Positions 33,474-57,921 of a stretch of DNA of 64,000 nucleotides are shown here, piece after piece (position 1 is the stretch's first letter; each line of letters opens with the position of its first letter). A program made the position numbers and the translations under genes. The notes beneath the pieces are model-generated. The model was not told the origin of the DNA. It was given only the letters and a program-made list of their open reading frames with translations, and searched no databases. Origin of the DNA: an uncultured Octadecabacter sp. Its GTDB lineage: Bacteria > Pseudomonadota > Alphaproteobacteria > Rhodobacterales > Rhodobacteraceae. The stretch is taken from the NCBI GenBank assembly GCA_937891785.1, contig CALAGN010000038.1:1-64000 (forward strand), given 5' to 3'.

Positions 33474-33605
33474 TGGCTTTCCTTTCACCTGATGGATGGA
33501 CTTCGGCGAACTGTATTTCGTCTTTTATTGCTTTTGGTCAGTCCGGGTTTGGGTAGAACCGAAGCCATCGTCGGGCGGCAGCCGCCTAATGTCAGAGCTT
33601 CGGGG

Positions 33606-38077: not shown

Positions 38078-38089
38078 AAGGCACGCGAC

Positions 38090-42798: not shown

Positions 42799-44184
42799 TC
42801 ATTTTGCGGCGGCAGGAGTGACAAATTCCCCTGCACCTTGCACCCCCACGACATCCCCGTTCAAGAACACGGTGTTGCCCCTGAGTATGGTCTGCGTGAC
42901 CCGACCGCGCAGGCGGCGTCCCTCGAAAAGGTGGGCAACCTCGCGGGCATGGGTATGGAGCGTTTCGGCGCTGATCACGGTTTCACCAGCCAGATCAACG
43001 ATAGTCACATCCGCCGCACTTCCCGGCAGTAATGCGCCTTTGAACGGGTAAAGACCATAGCGCCGCGCCCCGTTTGCACAGATCAGATCATGGGCGCGTT
43101 TCAGGCTCAGGCGGCCGTTGGCCACCGCGTCAAGCATCGCGGGCAGGATGAATTCGATCCCCGGAACACCCGGTGGCGCGGCAGGGAAATTCCCTTCGGC
43201 GGCTTGTTTTTCGGCCTTGGCAAAAGGGGCGTGATCGGTGGTGACGTAGTTGATCACCCCGTCTTCGATGGCCTGCCAAAGCGCGTCCTGATCGGCCTGA
43301 TGGCGGATGGGCGGATTGACCTTGGCGTAGATGCCCGCCTTTGCGACGTCCTTTTCAGTGGTGAAAAGGTAATGCGGGCAGGTTTCGGCGGTAAAATCGG
43401 ATGTGCCAGCAAAATCGCGCAGGACCTGCACGGTCTGCGCCGAGGTCACATGGGCGATGTGTAATTTGGCCTGTGCGGTCATGTTCATGGCCAGCAGTTT
43501 GGCCACGGCCACCGCCTCGCAAATGGCGGGGCGCGATTTGCCGTGGGTGGCCGCATCGGCCGGATCAAGCGCCTTGGCCGCGTCCTCGTAATGGGCCAAC
43601 AACGCGGCACTTTCGGCATGGACAACGACGGGCAGGCCGGTATCGGCCAATAGCTGCAAGGCGCGCAACTGGTCGGCCTCGTCGGGGAATGCCAGCCCTT
43701 CAAATTCGTCGGCACGACCGGCGGGCGATGGCGTGGTGAAAATCTTCCACGCGATGCAGCCGATCTCCATCATCTTGTCGCGGCTGGCCTTGGTCAGATC
43801 GCCGGGTGCGGCGTAAAGGGCAAAGTTGATGACGGCGTTTTCGCTGAAATGGTCACGACGGCGCGCCAGTTCTCCGGGCGTAGAGCAGCAAGGTTTCGAA
43901 ATGGGCATTTCGAACAGGGTCGTGACGCCACCAGCCGCTGCCGCGCGGGTTTCGGACAGGACAGTGCCCCGTTCCGGATAGGCAGGCGCGCGGACATGGA
44001 AATGGATATCAACTATGCCGGGCAAGGCGGTCTTGCCCGCAGCGTCGATCGTTTCAGTCGCGGTGGGCGCGGTTCCGGCGGCGTAAACGCCCGCGACTTT
44101 GCCATCCGCCAACCCCAGATCGACACGGTGAAGACCATGGGGCAACAGCACGTCGCCGCCCGTAATGAGTGTATCCAAAACCAT
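42799..44184 (-). CDS. Allantoinase/dihydroorotase/hydantoinase-like cyclic amidohydrolase
   Basis: This 461-residue metal-dependent amidohydrolase should open a cyclic amide or ureide ring. It has all ligands of the binuclear site: HFH (His61, His63), the carbamylated lysine Lys147 (CIAWKIF), His189 (VVVHAES), His245 (HIAHVTS) and Asp317 (TTDHAPF). Length and the NPPIR segment match allantoinase and long dihydroorotases; the absence of other pyrimidine genes argues against pyrimidine synthesis. ATG at 44184 overlaps the previous stop (TGATG). It may act with the PuuE- and AllA-like products on the other arm of block 2. Confidence 0.87.
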   Translation of the reverse strand: MVLDTLITGGDVLLPHGLHRVDLGLADGKVAGVYAAGTAPTATETIDAAGKTALPGIVDIHFHVRAPAYPERGTVLSETRAAAAGGVTTLFEMPISKPCCSTPGELARRRDHFSENAVINFALYAAPGDLTKASRDKMMEIGCIAWKIFTTPSPAGRADEFEGLAFPDEADQLRALQLLADTGLPVVVHAESAALLAHYEDAAKALDPADAATHGKSRPAICEAVAVAKLLAMNMTAQAKLHIAHVTSAQTVQVLRDFAGTSDFTAETCPHYLFTTEKDVAKAGIYAKVNPPIRHQADQDALWQAIEDGVINYVTTDHAPFAKAEKQAAEGNFPAAPPGVPGIEFILPAMLDAVANGRLSLKRAHDLICANGARRYGLYPFKGALLPGSAADVTIVDLAGETVISAETLHTHAREVAHLFEGRRLRGRVTQTILRGNTVFLNGDVVGVQGAGEFVTPAAAK

Positions 44185-45614
44185 CACTTCAGGCCCAGTT
44201 CGGTCAATGCCTTGGCCACACCGTCCAGATTTGTCAGATGCATCGAGGCATAGTTGGGCGACAAAACGACGCCGTGACCACCCGCGCGATAGGTCGCCAT
44301 GACCGACCGATACGCGATGTCAGGCGTGCATTTAGCTTGATCTGCGCGCACGCGGGGCGCATCAATGCCAAGGCCCATGAAAACCTTGGCCTTGTCATGC
44401 ACACCGCGCAGCGCCTCGGCGCATTGGCCGTAAACATAGGTGTCGGGGTCCAGCCCTTCTTGCACGACGCGATCAAGATCTGCGCCTTGGATGCCAAGGA
44501 TATCGTCCATGATCTTCATCGCCACGGATGGATCGAAATCACGCAGGATCGTCTTTTGGAAAAAGCCGAACTCTTTGTGCCAAATCTCGCCGGATTGGTG
44601 CTGATAGGTGATCGGCTTGACCCAATCGGCATACATCGTTTGTTCGTCCCACGGCCATTGCGCGCGGCGGAACAGGTTGAAATGGTTGCGGTTCCAGACG
44701 TTCAGACCAAAGGGCAGGTTGGGCTTGCACCATTTGACCAGCCCGTAAAGCTCGCGGTCGAGGTCTTTGTTCCGCTCAAGCCAGAACCGTTCCCAGATCA
44801 GGACTTCGGGGTTTTCCAGCAGGGTCCGGATAAAGGTAATGAACGCCCCGTCGTCGAATTCCTTGCCGGCCAGCGCATCCTGCATGAATTCATACATGGC
44901 GATGCAGCCACGGCGGCAGGCCTCGACATCAATGCCGCGCGCGATCGCTTCGTTGCGCGACGCTTCCGAGAAATCGCCCGGGGCTTCGCCTTGCATCATC
45001 TGGTCAAACGGGCTGTTGCGTTCGTTGCACCACATGATCCCGTCGATGTCATAGTTGCGCACCTGATCTTCGATGATTGCGTGCATCCAGTTGCGATAGT
45101 CGGGGTTCGATGTGCTAGGCTCGTCCTTGCGCACACCGAAGACGTCGACTTCCATGCAAGTGGCAAGGTTGGGGATCTCGATGTTGTTGACTGATCCGTG
45201 GCCCGCATATTTGAAGAACGGCTCCATCAGTTCGACATAGACTTTCATGCCGCGCTTGTGGGCTTCGGGGATCACCAGATCAAGGATGTCGATCCCTTCC
45301 ATTTCCTTATCCGTCGCGCGGAAGTCCTTGATCAGCGTCTTGGAATAATAGCGCGGATCGGGGTTGAAATAGGCGCCGCCCTTCATCGTGAAGGGTTCGG
45401 GCACGCCATGATCGGGCCAACCGTCAAGTTTGTGGGCAATGCTGCGCCCCGTCTTGAGGCCAAGCCAGCTCACCGTGCCGAGCATCAACACATTGACGCC
45501 AACACGGTCCTGCAACGTGTCCAGAACCGTATCGACACCTTCGTCGATAAAGCTGATCGGACTGACTTGGATGCCGACAAATTTTTCGGCCCTATCAGGT
45601 TTCATATTGCTCAT
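44184..45614 (-). CDS. Unrecognised TIM-barrel/glycoside hydrolase-like protein
   Basis: I do not recognise this 476-residue protein with confidence. It is soluble, has no signal peptide, and is rich in Trp, Asp and Glu. Segments such as VIPEAHKRGMKVYVELMEPFF, NYDIDGIMWCNERNSPFD and GLNVWNRNHFNLFRRAQWPWDEQ resemble beta-alpha barrel enzymes of the glycoside-hydrolase-like (DUF187/GHL10) type, with an E-x-N-type turn after a strand. It overlaps the aminotransferase stop by four bases and the allantoinase-like gene by one, so it belongs to the same pathway. The cytoplasmic location suggests a small-molecule substrate rather than a polymer. Confidence 0.6.
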   Translation of the reverse strand: MSNMKPDRAEKFVGIQVSPISFIDEGVDTVLDTLQDRVGVNVLMLGTVSWLGLKTGRSIAHKLDGWPDHGVPEPFTMKGGAYFNPDPRYYSKTLIKDFRATDKEMEGIDILDLVIPEAHKRGMKVYVELMEPFFKYAGHGSVNNIEIPNLATCMEVDVFGVRKDEPSTSNPDYRNWMHAIIEDQVRNYDIDGIMWCNERNSPFDQMMQGEAPGDFSEASRNEAIARGIDVEACRRGCIAMYEFMQDALAGKEFDDGAFITFIRTLLENPEVLIWERFWLERNKDLDRELYGLVKWCKPNLPFGLNVWNRNHFNLFRRAQWPWDEQTMYADWVKPITYQHQSGEIWHKEFGFFQKTILRDFDPSVAMKIMDDILGIQGADLDRVVQEGLDPDTYVYGQCAEALRGVHDKAKVFMGLGIDAPRVRADQAKCTPDIAYRSVMATYRAGGHGVVLSPNYASMHLTNLDGVAKALTELGLK

Positions 45615-46798
45615 GCCGCACCCCCTTTGTGGGCTTTGATAAAGCCGTTGATCCGGCCCATTGCTTCTTTGATGATGGGCAGGGGCTGAAGGTACGAAAT
45701 GCGAATGAAGTCGCTATCGGGTTCGCCGAACATGTCACCGGGGAAGACCATCACGCCGGTTTCGCGTAGCAGGTTTTCGCAGAATGGTTTGGCCTTCATG
45801 TCTGTCGCGGCAATGTTGGTGTAGATATAAAACGCACCACCCGGCGCGCCGTAACTTAGACCCGCGTCGGCCAACGCGCCCATCAGATAGTCGCGTCGCT
45901 CGGCATAATCGCGGAATGTCGCCTCCATCTCGTCCTGCGGGCCGGTCAGTGCGGCAAGGGCCGCGAACTGCGACACTGTGCAGGTATTGATCGACAGCGT
46001 GTGGCGCGGCTCGGTCAGCTTTTCGACAAAATCCGCCGGGGCCGCCATATAGCCGACCCGCCAGCCGGTCATCGCGTAGGTCTTGGAAAACCCGTTCAGG
46101 GTGATCGTGCGCTCTTTCATGCCGGGCAGGGTGGCCAGCGACAGATGCTCGTACGGCGGATAGATCAGCTTGGCATAAATCTCGTCGGCGATGACCAGAA
46201 TGTCATGCTTGATCGCAAGCTCTGCAATCTTGCGGATCACGTCGGGCGGCGTCACGGCCCCTGTAGGGTTGTTTGGCGAAACCAGCACAAACATGCGGGT
46301 TTTGGGCGTGATCCGTTTCTCGATCTCGGCCACATCCAGCGCGAAGTCATCCTTTTGATAGGTCGGCACGGGAATGGGAATACCGCCGCACAGATGCACA
46401 GCGGTGTCGTAGGTGGTGAAGCGAGGCGAGGTGATCAACACCTCGTCGCCTTCTTGCACCAGCCCCAACATGCACAGCATGATGCTTTCCTGCACGCCCG
46501 CCGTGACGATGATCTCGTCCGCGTCGTAGTCCAACCCGTATTCGGCCTTCAGGTTGTCGCAGATCGCTAGACGCAACTGCGGCAGGCCGGTCGGACCGGT
46601 ATAGTGATGTTGGTTTTCATCAAGCGCCTTCTTGGCCGCCTCAACGATGTGTTTTGGCGTGTGAAAGTCAGGGTCGCCGCGCCCCAGCGCGATGACGTTA
46701 TCAAGGCCCGCTGCGATGCCTAGCATCTTGGTGCGGAACGATCCGTCTTCTTCGACGATGCGCGAGGCGGTGCGTTTCAGCAAAAGTGATTGGGTCAT
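45611..46798 (-). CDS. Class I PLP aminotransferase (aspartate aminotransferase-like), copy 1
   Basis: This 395-residue fold-type I enzyme has the SPNNPTG substrate-binding motif, Asp205 in IADEIYAKL, and the PLP Lys239 in NGFSKTYAMTGWR. It transfers the amino group of an alpha-amino acid to a 2-oxo acid. The start at 46798 lies one base after the stop of the amidohydrolase gene. It is clearly paralogous to the enzyme at 53800-54999 (shared PPDxxRKIAELAxKHD segment), but the active-site surroundings differ enough that different partners are likely. Confidence 0.9.
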   Translation of the reverse strand: MTQSLLLKRTASRIVEEDGSFRTKMLGIAAGLDNVIALGRGDPDFHTPKHIVEAAKKALDENQHHYTGPTGLPQLRLAICDNLKAEYGLDYDADEIIVTAGVQESIMLCMLGLVQEGDEVLITSPRFTTYDTAVHLCGGIPIPVPTYQKDDFALDVAEIEKRITPKTRMFVLVSPNNPTGAVTPPDVIRKIAELAIKHDILVIADEIYAKLIYPPYEHLSLATLPGMKERTITLNGFSKTYAMTGWRVGYMAAPADFVEKLTEPRHTLSINTCTVSQFAALAALTGPQDEMEATFRDYAERRDYLMGALADAGLSYGAPGGAFYIYTNIAATDMKAKPFCENLLRETGVMVFPGDMFGEPDSDFIRISYLQPLPIIKEAMGRINGFIKAHKGGAA

Positions 46799-46799
46799 T

Positions 46800-48026
46800 T
46801 CAGTGCATCCTTTTGCCATCAATGAAGGTCATCTCGACCTTCTCAAGTGCGGTGAGGTCTTGGTCAGGCTTGCCGTCGACCACGATCATGTCGGCCAGCT
46901 TTCCAGCCTCCAAAGTGCCAAGTGTATCGCCAAACCCGTTCAACACCGCCGCGCGGGCGGTAATTGCGCGCAGGGCGTCAAGGTTGTCAGGGCAAACGCC
47001 GACTTCGACCATGAAACCCAGTTCGGGCACGATTCGGTCGTGTTCGACGGCGGGACTGCCAGCATCGGTACCAAACACAATCGGCACACCGGCCTTGGCG
47101 GCGCGGATCAGGCCGTCAAAGCGCGACTTGTCAGCGACAGCATTTTGGCGTTCTTCGATCTTCCATTCAGGGATACCAAAGGCGCGGGCAATGTCGGGAT
47201 TGGCCTGAATGACCAGCGCCGAAAACGTAGTGACGATGGGCAGTTTCTTGTCGAGCAGGAGCTGGATCGTCTTGTCCGTCATCGACCCGCCGTGTTCGAT
47301 GCAATCCACGCCAAACTCGGCCACCCGCGCGATGCAGGCGTCATAGGTTGCATGGGCCGTGACAGGCAGGCGGTTGCGATGGGCTTCGTCAATGACAGCA
47401 TGAAGTTCTTCGTCGGTAAATTCCAGCGTGTCATGGCAGGCCATGATCTTGATCAGATCGGCACCGCCTTTGACCTGATCACGCACAGCGCGGCGCATCT
47501 CGTCGGCGCCACTGGCTTCGCGGCAAACCCAATAGGTATGCCCACCGGTTTGAATGATGCTTTCACCAGACACCAACAGGCGCGGGCCGGGGAAAATCCC
47601 CTGCGCGACGGCCTGTTTGGTAAACAGGTTGGCATTGTGGACGCCCAGATCGCGGACCAATGTGATCCCTGCGCGCAGGCTCTTGATCATGTTGCCCGCC
47701 GCCTTGTAGGCGCGGATTTCCGGCGCGTCGAACATGCTTTGTTGGCTCAGCTCGTGGATGCCGTCCCAGCTGAGGTGCGCGTGACTGTTCATCATGCCCG
47801 GCATCAGCGTTTTGCCATGTGTGTCGGTCGCATCGACGCCCTTGGGCGCATCGGCCCGTTTGCCAACGGCAGCGATCTTTCCGTCTTTCAGGTGGACATA
47901 ACCGTCTTCGATCACCTCGTCCCCGACGCAGGTGATGACACGACCAAAGAACAGACTTTCGACAGCGGGGGCGTCGAACATTGGCTTTGTGATTTTCTGG
48001 TATTTCCAAGCGGCTGGTTCAGGCAT
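46800..48026 (-). CDS. Metal-dependent amidohydrolase (imidazolonepropionase/prolidase-like)
   Basis: This 408-residue amidohydrolase has the HxH motif (His82, His84 in NSHAHL), the lysine in DLIKIMACHD, histidines in TAHATYD and CIEHGG, and the final Asp in FGTDAGS: a full binuclear metal site. The layout matches the imidazolonepropionase-related group that includes Xaa-Pro and Xaa-Arg dipeptidases (prolidases). In a block with a peptide importer and three other peptidases a dipeptide or cyclic-imide substrate is likely. GAGGAG lies eight bases before the ATG. Confidence 0.85.
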   Translation of the reverse strand: MPEPAAWKYQKITKPMFDAPAVESLFFGRVITCVGDEVIEDGYVHLKDGKIAAVGKRADAPKGVDATDTHGKTLMPGMMNSHAHLSWDGIHELSQQSMFDAPEIRAYKAAGNMIKSLRAGITLVRDLGVHNANLFTKQAVAQGIFPGPRLLVSGESIIQTGGHTYWVCREASGADEMRRAVRDQVKGGADLIKIMACHDTLEFTDEELHAVIDEAHRNRLPVTAHATYDACIARVAEFGVDCIEHGGSMTDKTIQLLLDKKLPIVTTFSALVIQANPDIARAFGIPEWKIEERQNAVADKSRFDGLIRAAKAGVPIVFGTDAGSPAVEHDRIVPELGFMVEVGVCPDNLDALRAITARAAVLNGFGDTLGTLEAGKLADMIVVDGKPDQDLTALEKVEMTFIDGKRMH

Positions 48027-48038
48027 CTCTATGGCTCC

Positions 48039-49202
48039 TCAAATTGCAATTACGCGGGCGTCGATAGGCGTGTCGGATTGAAAGCGGGACGGGGTGTCGA
48101 CCCCTGATTCAGTCACAATCATTGTGTTGATCGTGCGGTATCCATCAAGGCCGGGGCGGTAGACGCCTGGCTCATTCGAGAAAACCATATTGGTTTGGAC
48201 CTGCGTGTTATCTCCTGGCGCGAGCCAAGGCGCTTCGTGGCCCTGCAGCCCCATGCCGTGACCGATCCGGTGGCGTATAGCGTCGCCCAGATCGGCGGCG
48301 CGGAGGGCGTCAAGTGCCGCATCGTTGACGGCTGTGCAGGTCTGACGTGTGGCGCAAGCGTTTACACCGGCGTCATTGCATTCTTGCATCGCCGTCATGA
48401 TCCGGTTTTGTTCGGGGCTGATGTCACCCACAATCAGCGTGACGCCACTTTCGGCGTGATAACCGCCAAGGCTAGCACCGATCCCTGCGATCAGTGTTTC
48501 GCCGGGTTGCGGCCTGCGTTCTAGCACCGCGCCATGGGGCAGGGCGGCGCGCGGCCCCGAATGAACACTTGCGGTGATGCCCATCGGCGTGCCGGAAAAA
48601 GCGGCCTTGTGCTTCGCCATCAAAGCACCACGCGCATGGCCCATGGCATCAGACATAAGATCGGCCTCGGTTCCGCCTTTGGCGATGATATCGCCAGCCG
48701 CAGCATGCAGCCGGATCAGGAAAAGGTCGGCGAACTTGGCAGCCTCGATTGTGAGGGCGATTTCTTCGGGCTTTTTGATGCTACGCACCAGCATTGCGTA
48801 ATCGGTCAGGTCCAAACCGCTTAGTTTGGCCCGCGCAGCATCTAGGAGTGCAGCATCCAGTTGATCAATGGCGATGGACTTGCGCCCGATTTGGTCAAGC
48901 ATCCACAGGACGGCAGGCACGTCACCCGGGAACTCGTCATAAAAGCGCAGATCAGTTAGCCCCGTGCCTTCGGCATTTTCGCGTTCCAAACCAGGCAGCA
49001 TCAGGATCGGATCACCTGAGACCGGCAACCAAACCCCCACCGGGCGTTCGTTAGCGGACAGAAACAGCCCCGTTGCATAGGCCATATTAGGAGCACTTAG
49101 CAAAAGTAGACCATCTAAGCCTGCCGCATCAGCCCTTGCGCGAAGACGATCGCGGGCACGTGCAAAAAACGCGGTATCAAGGGGGCGAAGGCCTTTGTTC
49201 AT
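48039..49202 (-). CDS. M24 (creatinase/aminopeptidase P fold) protein with altered metal ligands
   Basis: This 387-residue protein has a creatinase N-terminal domain (LLLSAPNMAYATGLFLSANERP) and a pita-bread C-terminal domain. Of the five metal ligands of prolidases (Asp, Asp, His, Glu, Glu), His (IGHGMGLQGHE) and the first Glu (SNEPGVY) remain, but the first Asp position reads Ala (LIAGIGA), the second reads Glu (HAES) and the last reads Asn (RTINTMIVTE). Loss of metal ligands is the state of true creatinases, which hydrolyse a C-N amidine bond without metal. A creatinase-like hydrolase is therefore as likely as a peptidase. It overlaps the Ldh2 gene by four bases. Confidence 0.78.
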   Translation of the reverse strand: MNKGLRPLDTAFFARARDRLRARADAAGLDGLLLLSAPNMAYATGLFLSANERPVGVWLPVSGDPILMLPGLERENAEGTGLTDLRFYDEFPGDVPAVLWMLDQIGRKSIAIDQLDAALLDAARAKLSGLDLTDYAMLVRSIKKPEEIALTIEAAKFADLFLIRLHAAAGDIIAKGGTEADLMSDAMGHARGALMAKHKAAFSGTPMGITASVHSGPRAALPHGAVLERRPQPGETLIAGIGASLGGYHAESGVTLIVGDISPEQNRIMTAMQECNDAGVNACATRQTCTAVNDAALDALRAADLGDAIRHRIGHGMGLQGHEAPWLAPGDNTQVQTNMVFSNEPGVYRPGLDGYRTINTMIVTESGVDTPSRFQSDTPIDARVIAI

Positions 49203-50287
49203 AGGGTGTCACCCGTGTAACGACCGATCCCTTCAAGAGCCGTCTTTAGCCTCAATTCCTGGCCAAGCGCCTGCATGTCAGCCAATACAACATCATCGAT
49301 CGGCACGCCGTTTTCGGACTTTGTCGCAGTGCGGCGCGCCTCCTGTTCACCTGGAACAAGAATTTCATCAAAGCCAGGACGAAGCGCGCGTGTCTTGGCC
49401 ATCTGCACGAATTCACCCATGCGAGTGGCATAATCTTCGGGATCCATGAACCATGAAATATCAATGGCTTGGAAGTAATGCGATACATCAAGTTTGTTCG
49501 GATTCGAATATGGTTTCAACCCAAAACCACCGCCCGACAGCACACCTGTCAGGGCTTCGGTCATAAAGGCAAGGCCATAGCCCTTGTGCCCGCCAATCCC
49601 CAAAAGCGGCCCCTTCAGGGCGGCGGCAGGATCATCGGTTTCGTCCCCGTCCGGCGTGATCGCCCAGTCGAGTGGCATTTTCTTACCTTCGCGGATCAGC
49701 CAGTTCATCATCCCTTTGCCAGCGGTGGTGATGGCGATATCGAGAACCGTCGGAAAGCCCTGATCGGATGGCGCTGCGATGGACCACGGGTTCGTTCCCG
49801 TCACACCTTCGCGCCCGCCCCAAGGGGCCATTTCGGGGCCAGCATTCGTGAATGCGATACCGATGCAACCGTGGTCCAAGGCCTGACAGGCATGTACCGC
49901 GCTTGATCCGTAGTGGGTCGAATTACGCACGATCACCGTGCCGATCCCGCCCTCTTTAGCCTTTTTGATCGCAAGGCGCATGGCCTTGGACGCGGCCACC
50001 GTGCCGATCCCGTTATGGGCATCGACCAGTGCCAACGCCGGACCTTCTTTGACGATGGACCAGCCGGCGCGGGGATCGATCTCGCCATTGCCGATCCGTT
50101 CGTGATAGCGGCGCAATCGTGCGACGCCCTGACCCTGACCGGGGTGAAAACGTAGCTCTGAAAAGATCAGGGCGTCGGCAAAAATCAACGCATCTTCAGC
50201 CGTGAGGCCAAGCGCCTCAAAGCCTTCGGAAACAAAGCGGCGCAAGGTTTCGCGGTCGACGTTGGTCATCGGGATTGGCTGGCTCAT
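49199..50287 (-). CDS. Ldh2/malate-lactate dehydrogenase family oxidoreductase
   Basis: This 362-residue NAD(P)-dependent oxidoreductase of the YlbC/DpkA/AllD family shows the typical segments LRFHPGQGQGVARLRRY, HNGIGTVAASKAM, VRNSTHYGS (catalytic His), GREGVTGTNPWSIAAP, and GGHKGYGLAFMTEALTGVL. Members reduce 2-oxo acids or cyclic imines (delta1-piperideine-2-carboxylate, ureidoglycolate), all fitting the ureide/imine theme of this block. It overlaps both neighbours by four bases. Specific substrate not known. Confidence 0.88.
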   Translation of the reverse strand: MSQPIPMTNVDRETLRRFVSEGFEALGLTAEDALIFADALIFSELRFHPGQGQGVARLRRYHERIGNGEIDPRAGWSIVKEGPALALVDAHNGIGTVAASKAMRLAIKKAKEGGIGTVIVRNSTHYGSSAVHACQALDHGCIGIAFTNAGPEMAPWGGREGVTGTNPWSIAAPSDQGFPTVLDIAITTAGKGMMNWLIREGKKMPLDWAITPDGDETDDPAAALKGPLLGIGGHKGYGLAFMTEALTGVLSGGGFGLKPYSNPNKLDVSHYFQAIDISWFMDPEDYATRMGEFVQMAKTRALRPGFDEILVPGEQEARRTATKSENGVPIDDVVLADMQALGQELRLKTALEGIGRYTGDTL

Positions 50288-51162
50288 GCGCGTAGCTCCA
50301 GAATATCGGCAATGTTCGTGCCCGGTGCGTCAAAGCTGCCCAACTGGCCCGCAGGGGCTGTCATCACGATAGTCATACCGGGGCCATAGCCCGCGCGCGG
50401 CCCATCCGTTTGGCCGACGATCCCGATGCTCATCGCGCCGCGCAAATAGCCGTGGTTGTAGCGGCTGTCGGTGTCCTGAATGGCGACGACATCGCCCAAC
50501 CGCAGCTTGTCGAGGCCGTGCTTTGCCAGTTCGGCACGATCAGTGGATTGGATATGCAGCGAACCGCCCTCAGAGGTAAGGCCAGCCCCCGCGCCGACGA
50601 AATGTGGTGGCACGGTGCCGCAGACGCCAATCTTGAGTGCGCCATCCTCAAGCCGCTTGGGAAGGGCATCGAAAAGCGTCGGAGACAGTGATTTGAACGC
50701 CACATCGGGGCAATCCGGTACGGTCATACCGACGCCTTCGCTTTTGACCAGTATCTGATCATCGACAGCAATCTTGCGGCGCGTTTCGACGTCAAAGTGG
50801 ATGATGACCTGATCGGAAAAGCGACCGGATTTTCCGGTGACGATACCGCGCGCGCCTTTAGCGGCACCACTGGTAATCATCGCTTCGTTGCCCACGCAGG
50901 CAAAGACGTTCAGGCCGCGATTTTTGTTGGCATCGGGGTGTGCGATGCTGACAGATGGGTGGATGCAATCGCCTGCCCATCCAAAGGCGCTGTCGCCGAC
51001 CGTGACGTTGTAGACGATGCCGCCAAACGTCGGCCAAAGGAATGCCTTGCCATCTGAATCAAGGCGGTAAGGCTCGGCTGGCAGGCCGGAAAGTGAAGGA
51101 TTGGCGACGAGGCCAAGAACAGAGACCGTCACAAGATCAGCGGCGTTGGTTTGAATGTTCAT
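50284..51162 (-). CDS. DUF4438-like protein, copy 1
   Basis: This 292-residue protein is a clear homologue of the preceding gene's product; shared landmarks are AFGWAGDxxxPxVSI, CxGNEAMxTSGxAxGxRGIVxGxxG, a QILVKSEGVGMTVPDCPDVAFKSLSPTLFDAL segment and a C-terminal GPGMTIVMTAPAGQL. I believe this is the DUF4438 family, known from structure but of unknown function. Rows of Asp/His (HPDANKNRG, IQDTDSRYNHGY) could bind a metal. Start at 51162 lies one base after the previous stop. Confidence 0.65.
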   Translation of the reverse strand: MNIQTNAADLVTVSVLGLVANPSLSGLPAEPYRLDSDGKAFLWPTFGGIVYNVTVGDSAFGWAGDCIHPSVSIAHPDANKNRGLNVFACVGNEAMITSGAAKGARGIVTGKSGRFSDQVIIHFDVETRRKIAVDDQILVKSEGVGMTVPDCPDVAFKSLSPTLFDALPKRLEDGALKIGVCGTVPPHFVGAGAGLTSEGGSLHIQSTDRAELAKHGLDKLRLGDVVAIQDTDSRYNHGYLRGAMSIGIVGQTDGPRAGYGPGMTIVMTAPAGQLGSFDAPGTNIADILELRA

Positions 51163-51163
51163 A

Positions 51164-52027
51164 TCAGGCTCCGAGATCAAGAAGGGTTGCGAGGGTTGCG
51201 CTTGGGTCGACGGTAAAATCGATATTGCCCGCACGCGCGGTCATAAGGGTGAGGATGCCGGGGCCATGTCCGGTCATGATACTGTCGCCGTGGATGCACA
51301 GGCAGATCGACACCGCATCTTCGCGATACGACCGCCCCCAGTGGTGATCGGCGTGGCGAATGGCGACCAGATCGCCAAGACGCATTTGGTCGATCCCCAG
51401 TTCTGCCATCAAGGCACGGTCGCCCGACATCAGGTCTTGGTCCACATATTCCGAGTTCAGTTCAGCGCCGGATCCCATGATGCGCACGGGCAATTCCATT
51501 GCGACGTTCACATGCAGCCTGCCCGCAGTTTCGGTGATCCCCATTGCGTGAAACAGGCGGGGGCTCATCTTTTTCAGGGCGACCCCGGGATAGTCTGTCA
51601 GCGCAAGGCCCTGACCCTTTGTCATCACTTGAATCCGGTCGCCGGGTGCCATCACCTCGTGCGCTTCGGGTGAAAACTGCACCAGAATGCGCGCGTGTTC
51701 GCCGACCACAATGCCCCGTTCCCCAGCTGCCATTCCAGAGGTCACCATCGCCTCGTTGCCGATGCAATTCATGTAGTGCAGCGCGTGGTGACGGCCGGAA
51801 TTTGCGTCATCATCAATCGAAACGCCCGGTTCCACATGGTCGCCCGCCCACCCGAAAGCGCGGTCGCCGCAGCGCACATTATAGGTAATTCCGAACATCC
51901 CTGGTAGGATCGTCGCCCGCCCGTCGGGGTGCGGGATATACTGCCCGGGACGCACCGAAGGCGTTGTTATCGCGCCTGATACGGCCATCTCGACCAGACT
52001 GTTCTCGTTTGTTTTCAAACTTGGCAT
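51164..52027 (-). CDS. DUF4438-like protein, copy 2
   Basis: This 287-residue protein is the first gene of the leftward block 2 operon. It shares with copy 1 the AFGWAGDHVEPGVSI, NCIGNEAMVTSGMAAGERGIVVG and HGPGILTLMTARAGNI segments, plus an Asp/His-rich IRHADHHWGRSYRED loop. The start at 52027 has AAGGAG nine bases upstream and a well-placed promoter with GntR site 3. Two adjacent, diverged copies suggest a heteromeric complex or two related substrates; function unknown. Confidence 0.65.
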   Translation of the reverse strand: MPSLKTNENSLVEMAVSGAITTPSVRPGQYIPHPDGRATILPGMFGITYNVRCGDRAFGWAGDHVEPGVSIDDDANSGRHHALHYMNCIGNEAMVTSGMAAGERGIVVGEHARILVQFSPEAHEVMAPGDRIQVMTKGQGLALTDYPGVALKKMSPRLFHAMGITETAGRLHVNVAMELPVRIMGSGAELNSEYVDQDLMSGDRALMAELGIDQMRLGDLVAIRHADHHWGRSYREDAVSICLCIHGDSIMTGHGPGILTLMTARAGNIDFTVDPSATLATLLDLGA

Positions 52028-52106
52028 GGGGCGGGACTCCTTAACGGGCTTTATCGGCGGACTGGCGCAATGTTTTGGTTTGACTCCCGCTGGCTTCCTT
52101 GCCATC

Positions 52107-52136
52107 AGTATATTGTCGACATTGCATTTGTCTGAA
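52107..52136 (-). promoter_or_regulatory. Divergent control region with candidate GntR operator, site 3
   Basis: The minus strand carries TGTCGACAAT (52121-52112) directly followed by TATACT (52112-52107), a good -10 box, with a weak TTCAGA (52136-52131) 18 bases upstream. Transcription would start about 73 bases before the copy 2 DUF4438 gene. The gap of 215 bases also serves the rightward operon starting at 52243, so one operator could control about 25 kb in both directions. Confidence 0.5.
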
Positions 52137-52242
52137 TGAGATACACGAGCCAAATGGATAGTCAAGCACCCCGCGTCCACGCCGCCGGATTCGTGAAAAC
52201 CGCAGCGCAGCGCGCGAAACGCCAAGAGGAGAATGGCCAGAG

Positions 52243-53769
52243 ATGAGTTATGCTGGATTGATTGAGGTGACGGGCCGCGTAAATGATTTCCTGAACGCAG
52301 GGTCTGTCTTGTCATGGGATGCGCGCACGATGATGCCAAAGGCAGGTGCCGGGAGCCGATCCAAACAGTTGGCAACCCTCGCGGTCGCCGCGCGCAACCT
52401 GCTTTGCTCTGACGAAATGAAGCGGGAGCTGGACGGCGCCGAGGCCGAAGTTTCCGGCACGGCAAGCGACAGCCCCGAAGCGCGCATTGTTGCGCAGGTT
52501 CGCGAAGCCATTGACTATCATGAACGTATCCCGACCGAGCTCTTGCGGCGCAAAACGGAACTAGGTGCAGCGGCACACGAGGTCTGGGCCGAAGCGCGTG
52601 AAAAGGCGGATTTTTCACTGTTTGCGCCAGCGCTGACCACGATGGTCGATATCAACCGTGAAATGGCGCAGGCAATCGGGTTTGAAGAACACCCCTATGA
52701 CGCACTGATGTATCGGTTCGAGCCGGGCACGACGACAGCGGGGCTAAAGACCCTGTTTGCCCGCCTTCGCGAGGGGATGATCCCGCTGGTGCGTGCAATT
52801 GCCGACGCTGAAAAACCGCACTCGGATTTCCTGTTTCGCGACTATCCCGTCGATGCCCAGATGCAATTTGCACTGAAGATGGCAAAGCGGATTGGCTATG
52901 ACACCGACCGCGGTCGGCTTGATACCACCGTGCATCCCTTCGAGGTGTCGTTCACCCGAAATGACGTGCGGATCACCACGCGGGTTGCCACGGACTATAT
53001 GCCAATGTCGCTGTTTGGCGCCCTGCACGAAGCGGGCCATGCGATGTATGAGCAAGGCGTTGACCCGGCCTATACGCGCACGCCGCTGGCGACGGATCTG
53101 ATCAGTCTTTATGCCGTTGGGGGCGTTAGTTTTGGCGCGCACGAAAGCCAGTCGCGCCTGTGGGAAAACCATGTTGGCCGCAGCCGCGCATTCTGGGCCA
53201 ATCACATGGGCGATATCAAGGCGGCCTATCCCGGCATCCTAGACGATGTGACGGACGAGGAGTTTTACCGCGCCGTAAACCGGTCCGAGCCGAGCTTTAT
53301 TCGGGTCGAGGCCGACGAGCTGACCTATGATTTCCACATCATGCTGCGCGCCGAGCTTGAGGCCAAGATGGTCGACGGTTCGCTTGAAGTGGCGGACCTG
53401 CCCGAAGCATGGAATGCCGCGATGAAGGAATATTTGGGCGTTGATGTTCCCGATGATGCGCAGGGCGTTCTGCAGGACGTGCATTGGTCGTCGGGCCAGA
53501 TCGGGACGTTCTGCAACTACACAATTGGCAATATCATGGCGGCGCAACTGTTCGACACCGCCACCAGCGAAAACCCCGGCATCCAGACAGCGCTTGATGG
53601 CGCGGACTATGCGCCGCTGCGCAATTGGCTGACCGACAAAGTTGCCCAACATGGCCGCCGTTATACCCGCGACGAATTGCTGGAAAATGCGACTGGTCGC
53701 GCGCTTGATCCCGAACCCTACATCGCCCACCTGACTCGCAAATTCACCGACATTTACGCACTGTCATGA
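52243..53769 (+). CDS. M32 metallocarboxypeptidase (carboxypeptidase Taq type)
   Basis: This 508-residue cytoplasmic protease removes C-terminal residues from peptides. It has the zinc motif HEAGH (His262, Glu263, His266) and the M32-specific HESQSR motif (His300-Glu301), with the normal family length and helical composition. First gene of the rightward block 2 operon, with GAGGAG about 12 bases before the ATG. Together with the peptide importer it argues for imported peptides or peptide-like compounds. Confidence 0.93.
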   Translation: MSYAGLIEVTGRVNDFLNAGSVLSWDARTMMPKAGAGSRSKQLATLAVAARNLLCSDEMKRELDGAEAEVSGTASDSPEARIVAQVREAIDYHERIPTELLRRKTELGAAAHEVWAEAREKADFSLFAPALTTMVDINREMAQAIGFEEHPYDALMYRFEPGTTTAGLKTLFARLREGMIPLVRAIADAEKPHSDFLFRDYPVDAQMQFALKMAKRIGYDTDRGRLDTTVHPFEVSFTRNDVRITTRVATDYMPMSLFGALHEAGHAMYEQGVDPAYTRTPLATDLISLYAVGGVSFGAHESQSRLWENHVGRSRAFWANHMGDIKAAYPGILDDVTDEEFYRAVNRSEPSFIRVEADELTYDFHIMLRAELEAKMVDGSLEVADLPEAWNAAMKEYLGVDVPDDAQGVLQDVHWSSGQIGTFCNYTIGNIMAAQLFDTATSENPGIQTALDGADYAPLRNWLTDKVAQHGRRYTRDELLENATGRALDPEPYIAHLTRKFTDIYALS

Positions 53770-53799
53770 TCGCATGACCACGCGAAGGAAGGACCAAAA

Positions 53800-54999
53800 A
53801 TGACTGCACTCGACCCACGGCTCGCCAAACGCGTGAAGCTTTCCGACGGGGGACTGATCACCAAAATGCTCGACATCGCCGATGGCCTTGAAGACGTGAT
53901 CAAGCTTGGCCGTGGCGACCCTGATCTGGATACGCCCGCGCACATCATCAAAGCGGGGCAAGAGGCGCTGGCCAATGGCGCGACCCATTATACGCACCCG
54001 CTGGGGATCGAGCCCCTGCGCGCTGCCATTGCCGATAATATCCGCCACTATGGCGGCGCTGATTATGCAAATGACGAAATTATGATCACGCCCGGCGGGC
54101 AACAGGGCATGTTCATCATCGCCCTGTCGCTGCTGAACCCTGGTGATGAAATCATCGTGCCGTGCCCGGGCTATAACCCTTACCAGCAGGCGGCAGAAAT
54201 GTCCGACGCCGTGGTGCGCAAGGTTCCGATGACGATGGAGACCAATTTCACCCTGACCGTGGATATGGTCGAGGCGCATATCACGCCGAAATCCAAAATC
54301 CTTGTGCTGATCAACCCCAACAATCCGACAGGCACCGTCACGCCACCTGACGAAGTGCGCAAGATTGCCGAACTGGCCAAAAAACACGATCTGATCATGA
54401 TCTCGGACGAGATTTATGCCCGCCTGACCTTTGGCAACAACACGGTTGTGCCGGTCGCTTCCTTACCGGGGATGAAAGAACGCACAATCACGCTCAGTGG
54501 CTTTTCAAAGGCCTATGCGATGACTGGCTGGCGTATCGGTTATCTGGCTGGTCCGCGCGCGCTGATCGCGCCGATGTCCGAGGTGAACCACGCCTTTGCT
54601 ATTTCTACCGCCGCCGTCAGCCAACATGCCGCCCTTGCCGCCATGACAGGATCACAGGACTGCGTGGAAGAAATGCGCCAGACCTATGACGGGCGCCGCA
54701 AAGCGATTTGCGAAGGATTGGACGCGATCGGTATGAGCTACGCCGAACCGCAGGGCGCTTTCTATGTCTATGCCAACGTGGCCAGCCTTGGCCTTGGGAT
54801 CACCGCCGGTGCCTTTTGCGAACGGCTTTTGGCGGACGGGCATGTGATGATGTATCCCGGCACGATTTATGGCGATCACACCGACGATTTTGTGCGCATG
54901 TCGATGACCCAGCCGGTAGACCGGATCAAGATCGCGATGAAGCGCATGGCCGACGTCGTCGAGAGTTTTCACGCTGACCACAGCCAACCCGCAGAATAA
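53800..54999 (+). CDS. Class I PLP aminotransferase (aspartate aminotransferase-like), copy 2
   Basis: This 399-residue fold-type I enzyme has YTHPLGIEPLR, PNNPTGTV, Asp203 in ISDEIYARL and the PLP Lys237 in SGFSKAYAMTGWR. It is a paralogue of the aminotransferase at 45611-46798 on the other arm. AAGGAAGGA lies seven bases before the ATG. Alpha-amino acid transamination is expected; amino donor and acceptor unknown. Confidence 0.92.
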   Translation: MTALDPRLAKRVKLSDGGLITKMLDIADGLEDVIKLGRGDPDLDTPAHIIKAGQEALANGATHYTHPLGIEPLRAAIADNIRHYGGADYANDEIMITPGGQQGMFIIALSLLNPGDEIIVPCPGYNPYQQAAEMSDAVVRKVPMTMETNFTLTVDMVEAHITPKSKILVLINPNNPTGTVTPPDEVRKIAELAKKHDLIMISDEIYARLTFGNNTVVPVASLPGMKERTITLSGFSKAYAMTGWRIGYLAGPRALIAPMSEVNHAFAISTAAVSQHAALAAMTGSQDCVEEMRQTYDGRRKAICEGLDAIGMSYAEPQGAFYVYANVASLGLGITAGAFCERLLADGHVMMYPGTIYGDHTDDFVRMSMTQPVDRIKIAMKRMADVVESFHADHSQPAE

Positions 55000-55013
55000 A
55001 CGAGGACCGCAAA

Positions 55014-55505
55014 ATGACCGTAAAATCAGATAACCCCAACGTCAAAAGCATCAAGCACATGGCCTTTGCCGTGAAAGATGCCACCGCCGCGCTCGAGGCC
55101 TATGCCAAGTTCCTGCATGTGCCTGCCGACACCGAAGTCATCCATTTCCCGAAATCCGGCAACAAGGTGGCGCTCTTTTATCTAGGCGGCATCGAATACC
55201 AGCTGTGCCAATCGACGGAAGTTGGCGGGCGTTTTGATGCGTGGATCAAAGAACGCGGGGCCGAAGGGCTGCATCACATTTGTTACGAGGTCGATGATAT
55301 CGACGTGGCACTGGCCCATGCGCAGGCGCAGGGCGCGGACCTTCGCGAATGCAAGGCCTGCAAAAAGACCGGTAGCCACGCCCACCCAGAAGGTTGGGTC
55401 GCGTTCCTAGATAACGATGCGGGGGGCATCGAGATTGAATTTATGCAGGTCTATACGCCCGCACAGCTTGCGGCCTATGAAAAGTCGGGGGCACAAGCAG
55501 TATGA
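55014..55505 (+). CDS. VOC-family protein (methylmalonyl-CoA epimerase/glyoxalase-like)
   Basis: This 163-residue protein has the paired beta-alpha-beta-beta-beta fold of the vicinal oxygen chelate superfamily: MAFAVKDATAALEAYAKFL at the N-terminus, EGLHHICYEVDDIDVALAHAQAQG with a His ligand in the middle, and GIEIEFMQVYT with a Glu ligand near the end. The layout matches methylmalonyl-CoA epimerase. An isomerase or ring-cleavage role is possible. Fourteen bases after the aminotransferase and overlapping the next gene by four. Confidence 0.85.
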   Translation: MTVKSDNPNVKSIKHMAFAVKDATAALEAYAKFLHVPADTEVIHFPKSGNKVALFYLGGIEYQLCQSTEVGGRFDAWIKERGAEGLHHICYEVDDIDVALAHAQAQGADLRECKACKKTGSHAHPEGWVAFLDNDAGGIEIEFMQVYTPAQLAAYEKSGAQAV

Positions 55506-56500
55506 GCACGGATGCAAAACAAACCCTGACAGTCGGCACGGCCACGGCCAAACCGGGCGAAATGCAACGCGGGGCGATCCCTGCCGGTGATCTGGCTGGC
55601 GGCATCAAGGTCGAAATTCCCGTCGTTGTGATCAACGGTGCGGGGGCCGGCCCAACCTTCTGGGTCAACGCCGCGATCCACGGTGACGAGCCCGAGGGCC
55701 CTCTGGCCTGCGCAATTGCGGCTAAACAGATCGACCCGACCAAGCTGCGCGGTGCGGTCGTGTTGGTGCCCTGCGTCAACCCGCTGGCATTTTCCGCCGC
55801 CGAGCGCGGCAATCCGCTTGATACCTTCGCCTATGATATGAATCGCATCTATCCCGGCAGGCCCGACGGCTATTTCAGCGACCGTGTTGCCGACTCCCAT
55901 TGGCAAGCGATGCAGGACGTGGCCGACTTGGAAATTTCGATCCATTCCGGCGGTGCGCATTCGTTCCTTGATAAGGCGATCTTTGTCGACGAACGCCCTG
56001 AAAGTGTCGAACTGGCCAAAGCGATGGGGACCGGTTGGGGCTGCATCATGTCCAACTTTACCAAGGCGGGCAGCCCGATGGCGGCGATGAACAATGCGGG
56101 CAAGGTCGGCATTACCGTCGAGCTTGGCGGGCGCTCTTATACCTCGCCCGAGCGGTTCCGCTATGTGGGTGACGAGTTGGCCAAGTCGATCCTGAACATC
56201 TGCTACCACTACGATATGCTGGACGGCACCGCGACCTATCCAGACGATGCAACCAAAGGCCAGCAAGAGGCGTTGCTGGCCCCCGCATCCGGCATCTTCC
56301 TGCCCGACGAAGGGGTCGATTTTCTGACGATGATGAAGAAGGGCACCAAGATCGCCCGCATTATCAATATTTTCGGTGACGAAGTCGGGGAACTTCACGC
56401 GCCGGCAGACGGTATGTTCTTTGGCCTGCGTGCCTTGCCGAACGTCAATCAAGGCGATTGGTGCTGCTTCTTCAACAAGGTGGAGGGTCCCCGTGATTGA
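55502..56500 (+). CDS. Aspartoacylase/succinylglutamate desuccinylase family deacylase
   Basis: This 332-residue zinc enzyme of the M14-like N-acyl amino acid deacylase family has HGDEPEG with His60 and Glu63, MNRIYPGR and ISIHSGG with His148, completing the Zn site, and a likely catalytic Glu in VELGG. It should remove an acyl group from an amino acid or amine, as DoeB does in ectoine catabolism. It overlaps the VOC gene start by four bases. The C-terminal region (ASGIFLPDEGVDF...KIARIINIFGDEVG) is the family's usual beta-barrel. Confidence 0.9.
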   Translation: MSTDAKQTLTVGTATAKPGEMQRGAIPAGDLAGGIKVEIPVVVINGAGAGPTFWVNAAIHGDEPEGPLACAIAAKQIDPTKLRGAVVLVPCVNPLAFSAAERGNPLDTFAYDMNRIYPGRPDGYFSDRVADSHWQAMQDVADLEISIHSGGAHSFLDKAIFVDERPESVELAKAMGTGWGCIMSNFTKAGSPMAAMNNAGKVGITVELGGRSYTSPERFRYVGDELAKSILNICYHYDMLDGTATYPDDATKGQQEALLAPASGIFLPDEGVDFLTMMKKGTKIARIINIFGDEVGELHAPADGMFFGLRALPNVNQGDWCCFFNKVEGPRD

Positions 56501-56527
56501 TGTGAGGTATCTTTCGGGGGCGGGCAA

Positions 56528-57439
56528 ATGAACCGGTCCCGCGACCTCGCAGGCTATGGCGCAAACCCGCCTGATATCCGCTGGCCAAACGGCGCGGGAC
56601 TGGCGGTGAATTTCGTGCTGAACGTCGAAGAAGGCTCGGAGTATTCGGTCGGCGATGGCGACGGTCGCTCGGAAAGCGCGCTCAGCGAAGTGCGTGCCTC
56701 CCGTGTGCCGCAGGGCGACCGCGATCTGGCGGCAGAATCGATGTATGAATACGGCAGCCGCGTGGGGTTCTGGCGGCTTTATAACCTGTTTCGAAAACGC
56801 GAGTTGCCGCTCACGATTTTCGCAAGCGCCGTGGCACTGGAGCGCACGCCTGATATCGCCGCTGCCATTGCCGCGACCGACTGGGACGTTTGTGCGCACG
56901 GGCACCGCTGGATTGAACACTACCATTTGAACCCGGAAGCCGAAGCCGAACAGATCGCGCTGGCCTTTGACAGCCTGACAAAGTCGGTAGGCCGTGCGCC
57001 GCGTGGTTGGTACTGCCGCTATTCGGCGTCGACCGCGACGCGGGGTTTGGTGGTGGCGCATGGTGGCTATGATTACGACAGTGACGCCTATAATGACGAC
57101 TTGCCCTACTGGACGCAGGTAGATGGCAACCCGCATCTGGTTGTGCCCTATTCGATGGTAACGAACGATGCCAAGTTCCTGTCGGGCGATGTCTTTTCAG
57201 CCCGCGATTACGCCGATTTTTTGATCGACACTTTCGACGTTCTGCTGGCTGAATCCAAAGACATGCCCCGCATGATGTCGATCGGCCTGCATTCCCGCAT
57301 TATCGGTCATCCGGGCCGTATGGCCGGATTGATCCGCTTCATGGATCATATCGCGGACAGGGCTGATATCTGGGTTTGTGGCCGTGACCAGATTGCAGAC
57401 TTCTGGCGCGAGAACGTGCCGCCGGAACAGCGCGGATGA
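56528..57439 (+). CDS. puuE: PuuE-type allantoinase/NodB-fold cyclic amide hydrolase
   Basis: This 303-residue NodB-fold protein matches the metal-independent allantoinase PuuE: FVLNVEEGSE where classical deacetylases have Asp-Asp, then HGHRWIEH (His126, His131), YGSRVGFWRL and a C-terminal GLHSRIIGHPGRMAGL. PuuE opens the hydantoin ring of allantoin to allantoate. There is no uricase or transthyretin-like gene nearby, so the physiological substrate may be a substituted hydantoin rather than allantoin. It overlaps the AllA-like gene by four bases. Confidence 0.85.
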   Translation: MNRSRDLAGYGANPPDIRWPNGAGLAVNFVLNVEEGSEYSVGDGDGRSESALSEVRASRVPQGDRDLAAESMYEYGSRVGFWRLYNLFRKRELPLTIFASAVALERTPDIAAAIAATDWDVCAHGHRWIEHYHLNPEAEAEQIALAFDSLTKSVGRAPRGWYCRYSASTATRGLVVAHGGYDYDSDAYNDDLPYWTQVDGNPHLVVPYSMVTNDAKFLSGDVFSARDYADFLIDTFDVLLAESKDMPRMMSIGLHSRIIGHPGRMAGLIRFMDHIADRADIWVCGRDQIADFWRENVPPEQRG

Positions 57440-57921
57440 CCGGCAAATCCCTCAAGCTGTGCGCACCAGATCCGGTCGCCTTTGCGCCATACGGCGCGTT
57501 TGTGATCCCCCCGGATCAGCCGGGCGAGAGGCGGTTTTTCAGCGATGCCCTGATCGAACGGCCCGTAGCAAGCGCCCCTGTCTTGCACGTCAACTTTGTG
57601 CAGCCGCTTACCCTGCCAATGTCTGTCGCGCGAATTGAACGCCATCCACATGCCGCACAGTGTTTCTTCCCGCTTGATGTGTCCCGCTATGTCGTGGTGG
57701 TGATGCCATCTGACGCTGACGGGCGCCCTTGCCGCGATCAGGCGCTAAGCTTTCTGGTGCCCGGAACGATGGGCGTGATCTATCACACCGGCGTCTGGCA
57801 TTTGGGCGCGACGGTTCTGGACCGGCCCGGCCATTTTACCGTTCTGATGTGGCGCGGGGATGCGCCGCAAGACGATGTATTCCTCGATATTGAGCCCTTG
57901 ACCCTGATCGACGCTGATTAA
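57436..57921 (+). CDS. allA: Ureidoglycolate lyase-like protein (AllA family)
   Basis: This 161-residue cupin-like protein has the AllA landmarks ARIERHPHAAQCFFPL (Glu68, His70) and GTMGVIYHTGVWHLGATVL (Trp121, His122). AllA cleaves ureidoglycolate to glyoxylate and urea. Paired by overlap with the PuuE-like gene, it completes a ring-opening then C-N lyase order, but no allantoate amidohydrolase of the usual type is present unless the M20 enzyme at 62614 serves. Confidence 0.85.
   Translation: MTGKSLKLCAPDPVAFAPYGAFVIPPDQPGERRFFSDALIERPVASAPVLHVNFVQPLTLPMSVARIERHPHAAQCFFPLDVSRYVVVVMPSDADGRPCRDQALSFLVPGTMGVIYHTGVWHLGATVLDRPGHFTVLMWRGDAPQDDVFLDIEPLTLIDAD

Follow-up and report, generated by a model that had tools for sequence, protein, structure and literature searches.

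Passages on the allantoinase PuuE, a NodB-fold protein, describe an enzyme that takes a small cyclic substrate and that, unlike HP0310, leaves the usual metal of its family unbound (PMC9304392, PMC3084791, PMC9863593), and two of these sources mention relatives of PuuE that open small cyclic imides (PMC3084791, PMC9304392). For the binuclear cyclic amidohydrolases, the passage concerned gives a ligand set of HxH, Lys, His, His and Asp (PMC9863593). Here we describe a stretch of 64,000 nucleotides from an uncultured Octadecabacter sp. (positions 1 to 64,000 of contig CALAGN010000038.1, assembly GCA_937891785.1; the window in what follows), in which a PuuE-type protein (PuuE2), a cyclic amidohydrolase (AHb462) and a ureidoglycolate-lyase-type protein (AllA2) lie in an island of about 25 genes (about 31.9-64 kb). 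The island also encodes a peptide-type ATP-binding cassette (ABC) importer, five peptidase-type hydrolases, two aminotransferases, a GHL10-like protein, two DUF4438 proteins and sugar-type dehydrogenases. We propose, with a probability of roughly 0.4, that this is a single GntR-controlled catabolic island, separate from purine breakdown, that takes up an amide-linked, peptide-like compound and of which the ureide-type enzymes are part.

A preliminary description of the window, made from the sequence alone, had named an allantoinase-like amidohydrolase and PuuE-type, AllA-type and Ldh2 proteins, all four of which are real and correctly placed (Table 1); the two ring-opening-type enzymes do belong to different families. 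It had also remarked on the lack of purine degradation genes. This is correct for the window, in which we saw neither a xanthine dehydrogenase nor a urate oxidase or transthyretin-like gene (the latter two were sought without a family search, and the open reading frames (ORFs) at 1-31 kb were partly read by eye only); OHCU decarboxylase and the molybdenum-enzyme domain, searched for in the whole genome, had no match on its contig. Nevertheless, the same genome carries the purine route elsewhere: contig 30 encodes XdhB (1217.6 bits, cut-off 849.5) and XdhC, and contig 74 a urate oxidase (Urate_ox_N), a transthyretin-like HIU hydrolase, a PuuE-UraD fusion, an AllA protein (AllA1), an NCS2 permease and the OHCU decarboxylase match. 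The contig-74 fusion passes TIGR03212 (495.7 bits against a cut-off of 424.6) and AllA1 passes its NCBIfam model (282.7 against 260). Given this set, PuuE2 and AllA2 are second copies, and because it is intact while the window genes are open and conserved, the possibility that the latter are a degenerate remnant of purine breakdown can be rejected.

The gene neighborhood is conserved across phyla. A search of named genomes gave 489 relatives of PuuE2, of which we retained the best 80, and 31 of these loci, picked for visible island genes or a close PuuE, led to 30 genomes; the short island-bearing contigs L011, L023, L027 and L030 were left outside this set. The counts that follow are lower bounds, the stretches being of unequal length and matches being accepted at an identity of at least 43% (at least 33% for AllA and the epimerase). 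The presence of PuuE in 30/30 genomes follows from the selection; that of the GHL10-like gene, also 30/30 in genomes all picked by PuuE2, does not. The two aminotransferases (AT1 and AT2) and AstE are likewise found in all 30, VOC and the first Gfo/Idh dehydrogenase in 29, AllA and M32 in 27, AH408 and the epimerase in 26, Ldh2 and the second Gfo/Idh dehydrogenase in 25, SDR in 24 and both DUF4438 genes in 23. The remaining components are less frequent: M24, M20 and OppC (21/30), OppF and DHDPS (17/30), SBP5 and OppB (15/30), OppD (14/30) and GntR (10/30). An orthologue of AHb462 (at least 51% identity) is present in 26 genomes and directly adjoins the GHL10-like gene in 24 of these; metagenome-assembled genomes (MAGs) of Telmatospirillum, Acidobacteriaceae, Hyphomicrobiales and Methylobacterium have a smaller set that lacks it. 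AHb462 is thus an accessory gene and PuuE2 a core one, the latter by selection. The OHCU decarboxylase is also found in 26 of the 30 genomes. Since the same block recurs from Rhodobacteraceae through Rhizobium and others to Gemmatimonadota, the neighborhood is more than chance, and this co-conservation rules out a fortuitous assembly of neighbors. The island is rare and scattered, the GHL10-like gene being found in 7 of 248 genomes of the family, that of the window included.

Several observations were made on individual genomes. One MAG (G081) has two copies each of AHb462 and the GHL10-like gene, on contigs 33 and 241, and an alphaproteobacterial MAG (L160, 8088-10787) encodes an M14 zinc carboxypeptidase near the island, the first part of the ORF resembling a wrong frame. 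The record titled Enemella evansiae, an actinobacterium (L017), belongs to a genome (G075) that equals G003, from the window's family, in places and scores, so that the name of the record is probably wrong. A comparison of AstE with plasmids gave no match.

The second line of evidence is a shared operator-like sequence. A palindrome, TGTCGACA, is common, with matching flanks, to three junctions of the window, at each of which the modelled site spans 22 bp: upstream of the GntR gene, between the divergent OppF and OppB genes, and between two long divergent operons that start with the second DUF4438 gene (DUF4438b) and M32. In the island stretches of the 30 genomes, there are 77 matches to its 10-mer with at most one mismatch, 19 of which, from 14/30 genomes, lie outside the island-gene matches; some sites are hidden in this count because the DUF4438b query ORF spans the junction. 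Seven of the 19 were excluded from the model by judgement: a duplicate in L031, single sites in L165 (at a distance of 52 bp to OppF), L159 (in the interval from OppD to M32) and L032 (next to OppF), and three more. Exact 10-mers fall outside the island-gene matches, which leave 23% of the bases, in seven of nine distinct cases (binomial 0.0008). A model trained on 12 sites from other genomes, Gemmatimonadota and Rhizobiales included, gave scores of 26.5 (34499), 23.7 (36886) and 26.4 (52107) in the window, the next best being 10.4; in 100 shuffles of the window, the best single score was 22.4 and the mean best 12.2. On contig 74 the best score is 9.2 and in the XdhB stretch of contig 30 it is 8.3, so that, by this sequence model, the operator is not shared with the purine genes. 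With at most one mismatch, the 12-mer occurs at 16 places in the genome, three of them in the window; among seven of the other 13 that were checked, the best scores 17.4 and is inside a predicted gene.

A leave-one-out test, in which each genome was excluded from its own model, covered divergent junctions between neighboring island genes in 21 rows (20 distinct, one G065 row appearing twice). The divergent M32 junction scores 15.9-29.5 in 15/15 other genomes where it could be tested, including G061, G067, G069, G073, G074 and G078, none of which supplied training sites. Altogether 18/21 rows score at least 15, G086 being lower at 14.1; in 200 shuffles per row the score was reached 0 times in 18 rows, once in two (G073 and G068) and 147 times in G088. 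The scores, their conservation and the lack of such a site on contig 74 support one regulon, separate from purine breakdown, in which the island genes are probably switched jointly, as the preliminary description had supposed for these enzymes and the peptide-type importer. We predict that the GntR protein encoded at 33606-34301 binds the palindrome. As the observation that would count against it, the preliminary description had raised two allantoin-specific enzymes with a full purine route elsewhere under the same regulator. This holds only by half: a purine route does exist elsewhere, but it has its own PuuE and AllA and no such palindrome.

The third line of evidence concerns the ureide-type enzymes. 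PuuE2 matches the Pseudomonas fluorescens PuuE structure 3cl6 over its full length (E=5.5e-85, 288.7 bits), whereas the HP0310/imidase branch (3qbu) reaches 46.1 bits and is not its closest kin; with 351 bits it stays below the curated cut-off of TIGR03212. A branch of length 0.4 divides a tree of 86 rows into the PuuE2 side and the side of 3cl6 and the contig-74 protein, on which loci encoding urate oxidase, HIU hydrolase and UraD are also placed; its support is 100/100, a rough value given an unsettled bootstrap and flagged long branches. Positions 214 and 218 (3cl6 numbering) are D and M in 11/11 purine-context rows. In the 34 island rows, position 214 is V in 30, T in three and A in one, and position 218 is A in 31, T in two and V in one; PuuE2 of the window has V and A rather than the residues of the purine group. 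This count excludes L057, L072 and L076, which lack tested purine context and were taken as purine in an earlier alignment, and L066, which is labelled purine in the tree, falls on the PuuE2 side and has V and C.

AllA2 is a member of the Pfam family Ureidogly_lyase (PF04115; 70.4 bits, cut-off 23) and remains below the cut-offs of all eight NCBIfam AllA models shown (best 70.1 bits against 212); Met replaces the Asp of the Asp-Arg motif of AllA1 in 28/28 AllA2 rows, 23 of which have Met-Trp. By these sequence comparisons, PuuE2 and AllA2 are diverged paralogues below the curated cut-offs. An Actinomycetota MAG (L053, 3902-5269) holds AllA2-type and PuuE2-type parts in one open frame. AHb462 has AllB (TIGR03178) as its best NCBIfam model, at 284.5 bits below the cut-off of 357.85, and L-hydantoinase 1gkr as its best solved relative. 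The motifs HxH, Lys, His, His and Asp, which start at residues 60, 146, 188, 243 and 316 and which we take to be its metal ligands, place it among the binuclear cyclic amidohydrolases; the ligand letters themselves show at least 93% conservation over 27 aligned sequences. The AHb462 matches in seven genomes (L101, L102 and L109-L113) extend across a single stop codon, which may lie right at the gene's end.

From the computed gene content, the conservation across phyla, the shared operator-like sites and the paralogy to the purine route, we infer the following steps. SBP5 and OppBCDF would import an amide-linked, peptide-like compound, from which AH408, M24, M32, M20 and AstE might cleave peptide bonds and free amino acids to be transaminated by AT1 and AT2. 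PuuE2, as the core enzyme, would hydrolytically open a fragment with a cyclic ureide or imide, AHb462 could open a related ring in most carriers, and AllA2 may split the resulting ureido or alpha-hydroxy-amide acid into a 2-oxo acid such as glyoxylate and urea or an amide. Ldh2, the Gfo/Idh, SDR and epimerase proteins and the DHDPS-type enzyme would then carry the carbon skeleton into central metabolism. Our best guess at the substrate is a molecule of peptide-like character that carries a cyclic ureide or imide. Conceivable candidates, with no choice made among them, are hydroxyproline-rich or cyanobacterial peptides, mycosporine-like amino acids and glycated arginine or lysine. A more ambitious version, which we regard as doubtful, is that this is a new pathway of more than 20 genes that degrades a widespread natural product of the amino-acid-conjugate kind and is shared by Alphaproteobacteria and Gemmatimonadota and partly by Acidobacteriota. 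Enzymes of the purine type would have been recruited to it, PuuE2 opening a ring other than allantoin and AllA2 acting on a peptidyl-type alpha-hydroxy-amide to free a 2-oxo acid, be it glyoxylate or another. Titles and the beginnings of abstracts in the open-licence literature yielded no description of such an island, which may be described elsewhere, and nothing on DUF4438 or on mycosporine breakdown. If the proposal of a peptide-linked island is true, enzymes to which databases would give the names allantoinase and ureidoglycolate lyase serve another pathway here, and purine breakdown would be wrongly inferred for the carriers from their PuuE2 and AllA2 genes. The island is of compact size, its operator can be recognised, and cultured strains such as Limimaricola pyoseonensis DSM 21424 and Rhodophyticola porphyridii MA-7-27 carry it, so that the GntR and binding proteins would offer direct handles on a nitrogen-rich compound that is eaten by bacteria.

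Several observations weigh against this proposal. No allantoicase or carbamoylase that could link PuuE2 with AllA2 was recognised in the island, and sugar-type dehydrogenases are unsuited to a plain hydantoin or peptide. No AllA was seen in the stretches examined of G087, G089 and G090, and the fold prediction for the GHL10-like protein, made from a three-sequence alignment, failed (mean predicted local distance difference test score 37.7). Among the operator-like sites, the G088 junction (-6.0) and the OppF/OppB junction of G068 (11.5) fail to score, the 12-mer by itself is frequent genome-wide (218 places with at most two mismatches against 43 for the reversed control), and part of the model is not independent, because the core was first noticed in the window. 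Furthermore, a Rhodobacteraceae MAG (L066) encodes a PuuE2-type protein (V214, C218, H265) in one stretch with urate-oxidase-like (35%) and guanine-deaminase-like (46%) genes, and gammaproteobacterial loci pair PuuE2 and AllA2 with a permease and a carbamoylase-family M20; because of these ureide contexts, PuuE2 might still act on allantoin. The gammaproteobacterial loci in question (L037, L040, L041 and L046) contain PuuE2 and, in differing sets, AllA2, an NCS1-type permease, the M20 protein and HyuA/HyuB-type genes.

These same contexts, together with the family assignments of PuuE2, AllA2 and AHb462 (AllB being the best model of the last), speak for a second allantoin route, in which PuuE2 and AHb462 are allantoinases and AllA2 a ureidoglycolate lyase, forming a scavenging module for external allantoin beside unrelated peptide genes. 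We consider this unlikely: the window proteins stay below the allantoinase and AllA cut-offs, contig 74 already supplies such chemistry, the genes are tightly co-conserved with peptidases and aminotransferases, and the transporter is of the peptide rather than the nucleobase type. An allantoicase was not matched either, although this proves nothing, the search having given none in any control genome.

PuuE2 could also be a hydrolase of cyclic imides or cyclic dipeptides, the island degrading peptide-derived cyclic imides or diketopiperazines and AllA2 acting as a lyase on an alpha-hydroxy-amide. A precedent comes from HxnM, a NodB-fold relative that acts on 3-hydroxypiperidine-2,6-dione by ring opening and shares 64% identity with a Pseudomonas putida cyclic imide hydrolase homologue (PMC9304392). 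The Xaa-Pro-type peptidases M24 and AH408, both below the cut-offs of their models, would fit, as would a Granulicella relative of the GHL10-like protein, which lies beside aminopeptidase P among genes that by name resemble hydroxyproline breakdown. That PuuE2 is far closer to PuuE than to the imidase branch makes this unlikely as well, and nothing links the sugar-type dehydrogenases to cyclic dipeptides.

The plain use of 5-substituted hydantoins, D- and L-forms being imported and opened by AHb462 and PuuE2, draws on the kinship of AHb462 to L-hydantoinase and on the gammaproteobacterial PuuE2 loci with HyuA/HyuB genes (read by eye) and the carbamoylase-family M20, but it is very improbable, since no N-carbamoyl-amino-acid hydrolase was recognised in the island, the M20 protein there is of the dipeptidase type, and AH408, M24, M32, AstE, GHL10 and Gfo/Idh are left unexplained. 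The substituted hydantoin suggested in the preliminary description is an overstated reading, though one option still; the five peptidase-type genes, both aminotransferases, the GHL10-like gene and those for sugar-type dehydrogenases suggest an amino-acid conjugate of larger size. The M20 gene that it had listed as a possible ureide enzyme is present, but dipeptidase-like, and its interpretation as a whole is partly supported.

Table 1. Genes and operator-like sites of the island, in window coordinates
Feature	Position	Strand	Basis or remark
SBP5 peptide-type substrate-binding protein (AppA/DppA-like)	31920..33488	-	Pfam SBP_bac_5 231.9 bits; nearest PDB 5isu, then 1xoc AppA
GntR/FCD regulator, presumed island regulator	33606..34301	-	Pfam GntR and FCD; orthologues in stretches of at least 10/30 genomes
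Operator-like palindrome 1, 198 bp upstream of GntR	34499..34520	.	score 26.5
OppD and OppF ATPases	34687..36686	-	Pfam ABC_tran and oligo_HPY
Operator-like palindrome 2, between divergent OppF/OppB	36886..36907	.	score 23.7
OppB and OppC permeases	37103..39028	+	Pfam BPD_transp_1
Two ABC exporter half-transporters, optional members	39025..42737	-	Pfam ABC_membrane; upstream gene taken to start at 42737
AHb462 cyclic amidohydrolase (hydantoinase/allantoinase/dihydroorotase type), accessory gene	42799..44187	-	HxHxRxP, K, H, H, D motifs
GHL10-like, suspected glycosidase-type barrel, island marker	44184..45614	-	Pfam GHL10 23.8 bits, below cut-off 27.9
AT1 class I pyridoxal phosphate (PLP) aminotransferase-type	45611..46798	-	start 46798; 46% identical to AT2
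AH408 amidohydrolase, Xaa-Pro dipeptidase / arginine carboxypeptidase kind	46800..48026	-	NF051886 203.8 bits (cut-off 500); 3mtw, 3be7
M24 peptidase, PepQ-like	48039..49202	-	Pfam 127.3 bits; NF040821 100.6 bits (cut-off 630)
Ldh2 dehydrogenase (Ldh_2)	49199..50287	-	Pfam 361 bits
DUF4438 protein a	50284..51162	-	Pfam; TM1086 structure 3n99
DUF4438 protein b	51164..52027	-	Pfam; start set after the ORF's long 5' extension
Operator-like palindrome 3, between divergent DUF4438b and M32 operons	52107..52128	.	score 26.4
M32 carboxypeptidase	52243..53769	+	Pfam 579.6 bits
AT2 class I PLP aminotransferase-type	53800..54999	+	
VOC protein, methylmalonyl-CoA-epimerase-like	55014..55505	+	TIGR03081 59.7 bits (cut-off 114.95)
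AstE/AspA-type zinc deacylase, DoeB-like	55502..56500	+	found in 30/30 island genomes
PuuE2, PuuE-type (NodB fold) ring-opening enzyme without UraD domain	56528..57439	+	
AllA2 ureidoglycolate-lyase-type protein	57436..57921	+	
DHDPS-family aldolase or lyase	57963..58865	+	
NAD-dependent epimerase/dehydratase	58862..59794	+	
Gfo/Idh/MocA dehydrogenase 1	59791..60831	+	
Gfo/Idh/MocA dehydrogenase 2	60825..61907	+	
SDR dehydrogenase	61907..62617	+	
M20 dipeptidase-like peptidase	62614..63966	+	

Most genes of the left operon, which includes AHb462, overlap or directly adjoin their neighbors; PuuE2 and AllA2 belong to the right one (Table 1). The M20 protein scores best with dipeptidase-type models, and no carbamoylase model is among the best 25 of 35. 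Ldh2 scores 232.6 bits with the sulfolactate dehydrogenase model and at most 171.7 with ureidoglycolate dehydrogenase, all under cut-off. The GHL10 profile has weak amylase- and Cwp19-type matches in the PDB (best E 0.005), and the exporter half-transporters have close relatives in the stretches of 2/30 and 6/30 genomes. Outside the island, a further polysaccharide-deacetylase-fold protein (712-1644) reaches 57.7 bits to TIGR03212. Other catabolic genes lie at 1799-27068, including a beta-keto acid cleavage type acetyltransferase (over cut-off), a succinate-semialdehyde-type dehydrogenase, a class III aminotransferase, two DAO-type oxidases, a SoxA-like oxidoreductase and two DHDPS-type genes, and a split glycine decarboxylase-like pair occupies 22782-25822.

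Among known systems, the PuuE allantoinases (TIGR03212; 3cl6) share the family of PuuE2, which keeps the residues invariant across the whole alignment but differs from them in having no UraD domain, in the replacement of D214 and M218 and in lying in a peptide-type island rather than a purine locus. HxnM of Aspergillus nidulans and the P. putida imidase belong to the same superfamily and open cyclic imide rings (PMC9304392), although their branch is only a distant relative of PuuE2 by its score to 3qbu. Ectoine degradation uses an M24 enzyme, an AstE-type deacylase and an aminotransferase (DoeA, DoeB and DoeD). The island contains a similar kit, but ectoine use is rejected, with 105.9 bits to the DoeB model (cut-off 402.7) and 40.8 to that of DoeA (cut-off 613). 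Similarly, AHb462 matches both models of ErtD, the hydantoin-5-propionate amidohydrolase of ergothioneine use, with 276.6 and 242.7 bits against cut-offs of 650 and 600; the families listed for those island proteins that were scanned include no other Ert gene, and ergothioneine use is rejected as well. On the Granulicella plasmid pACIX901 (L175, 9857-11401), a GHL10 homologue with 31.6% identity is encoded near proline racemase family, DHDPS and aldehyde dehydrogenase genes, a lead only as far as hydroxyproline breakdown is concerned, and no PuuE, AllA or amidohydrolase is among the 15 features of its incomplete gene table. Like the island, however, this locus brings a GHL10-like gene together with a peptidase and a regulator, the homologue lying between a peptidyl-prolyl isomerase and aminopeptidase P, near a GntR regulator.

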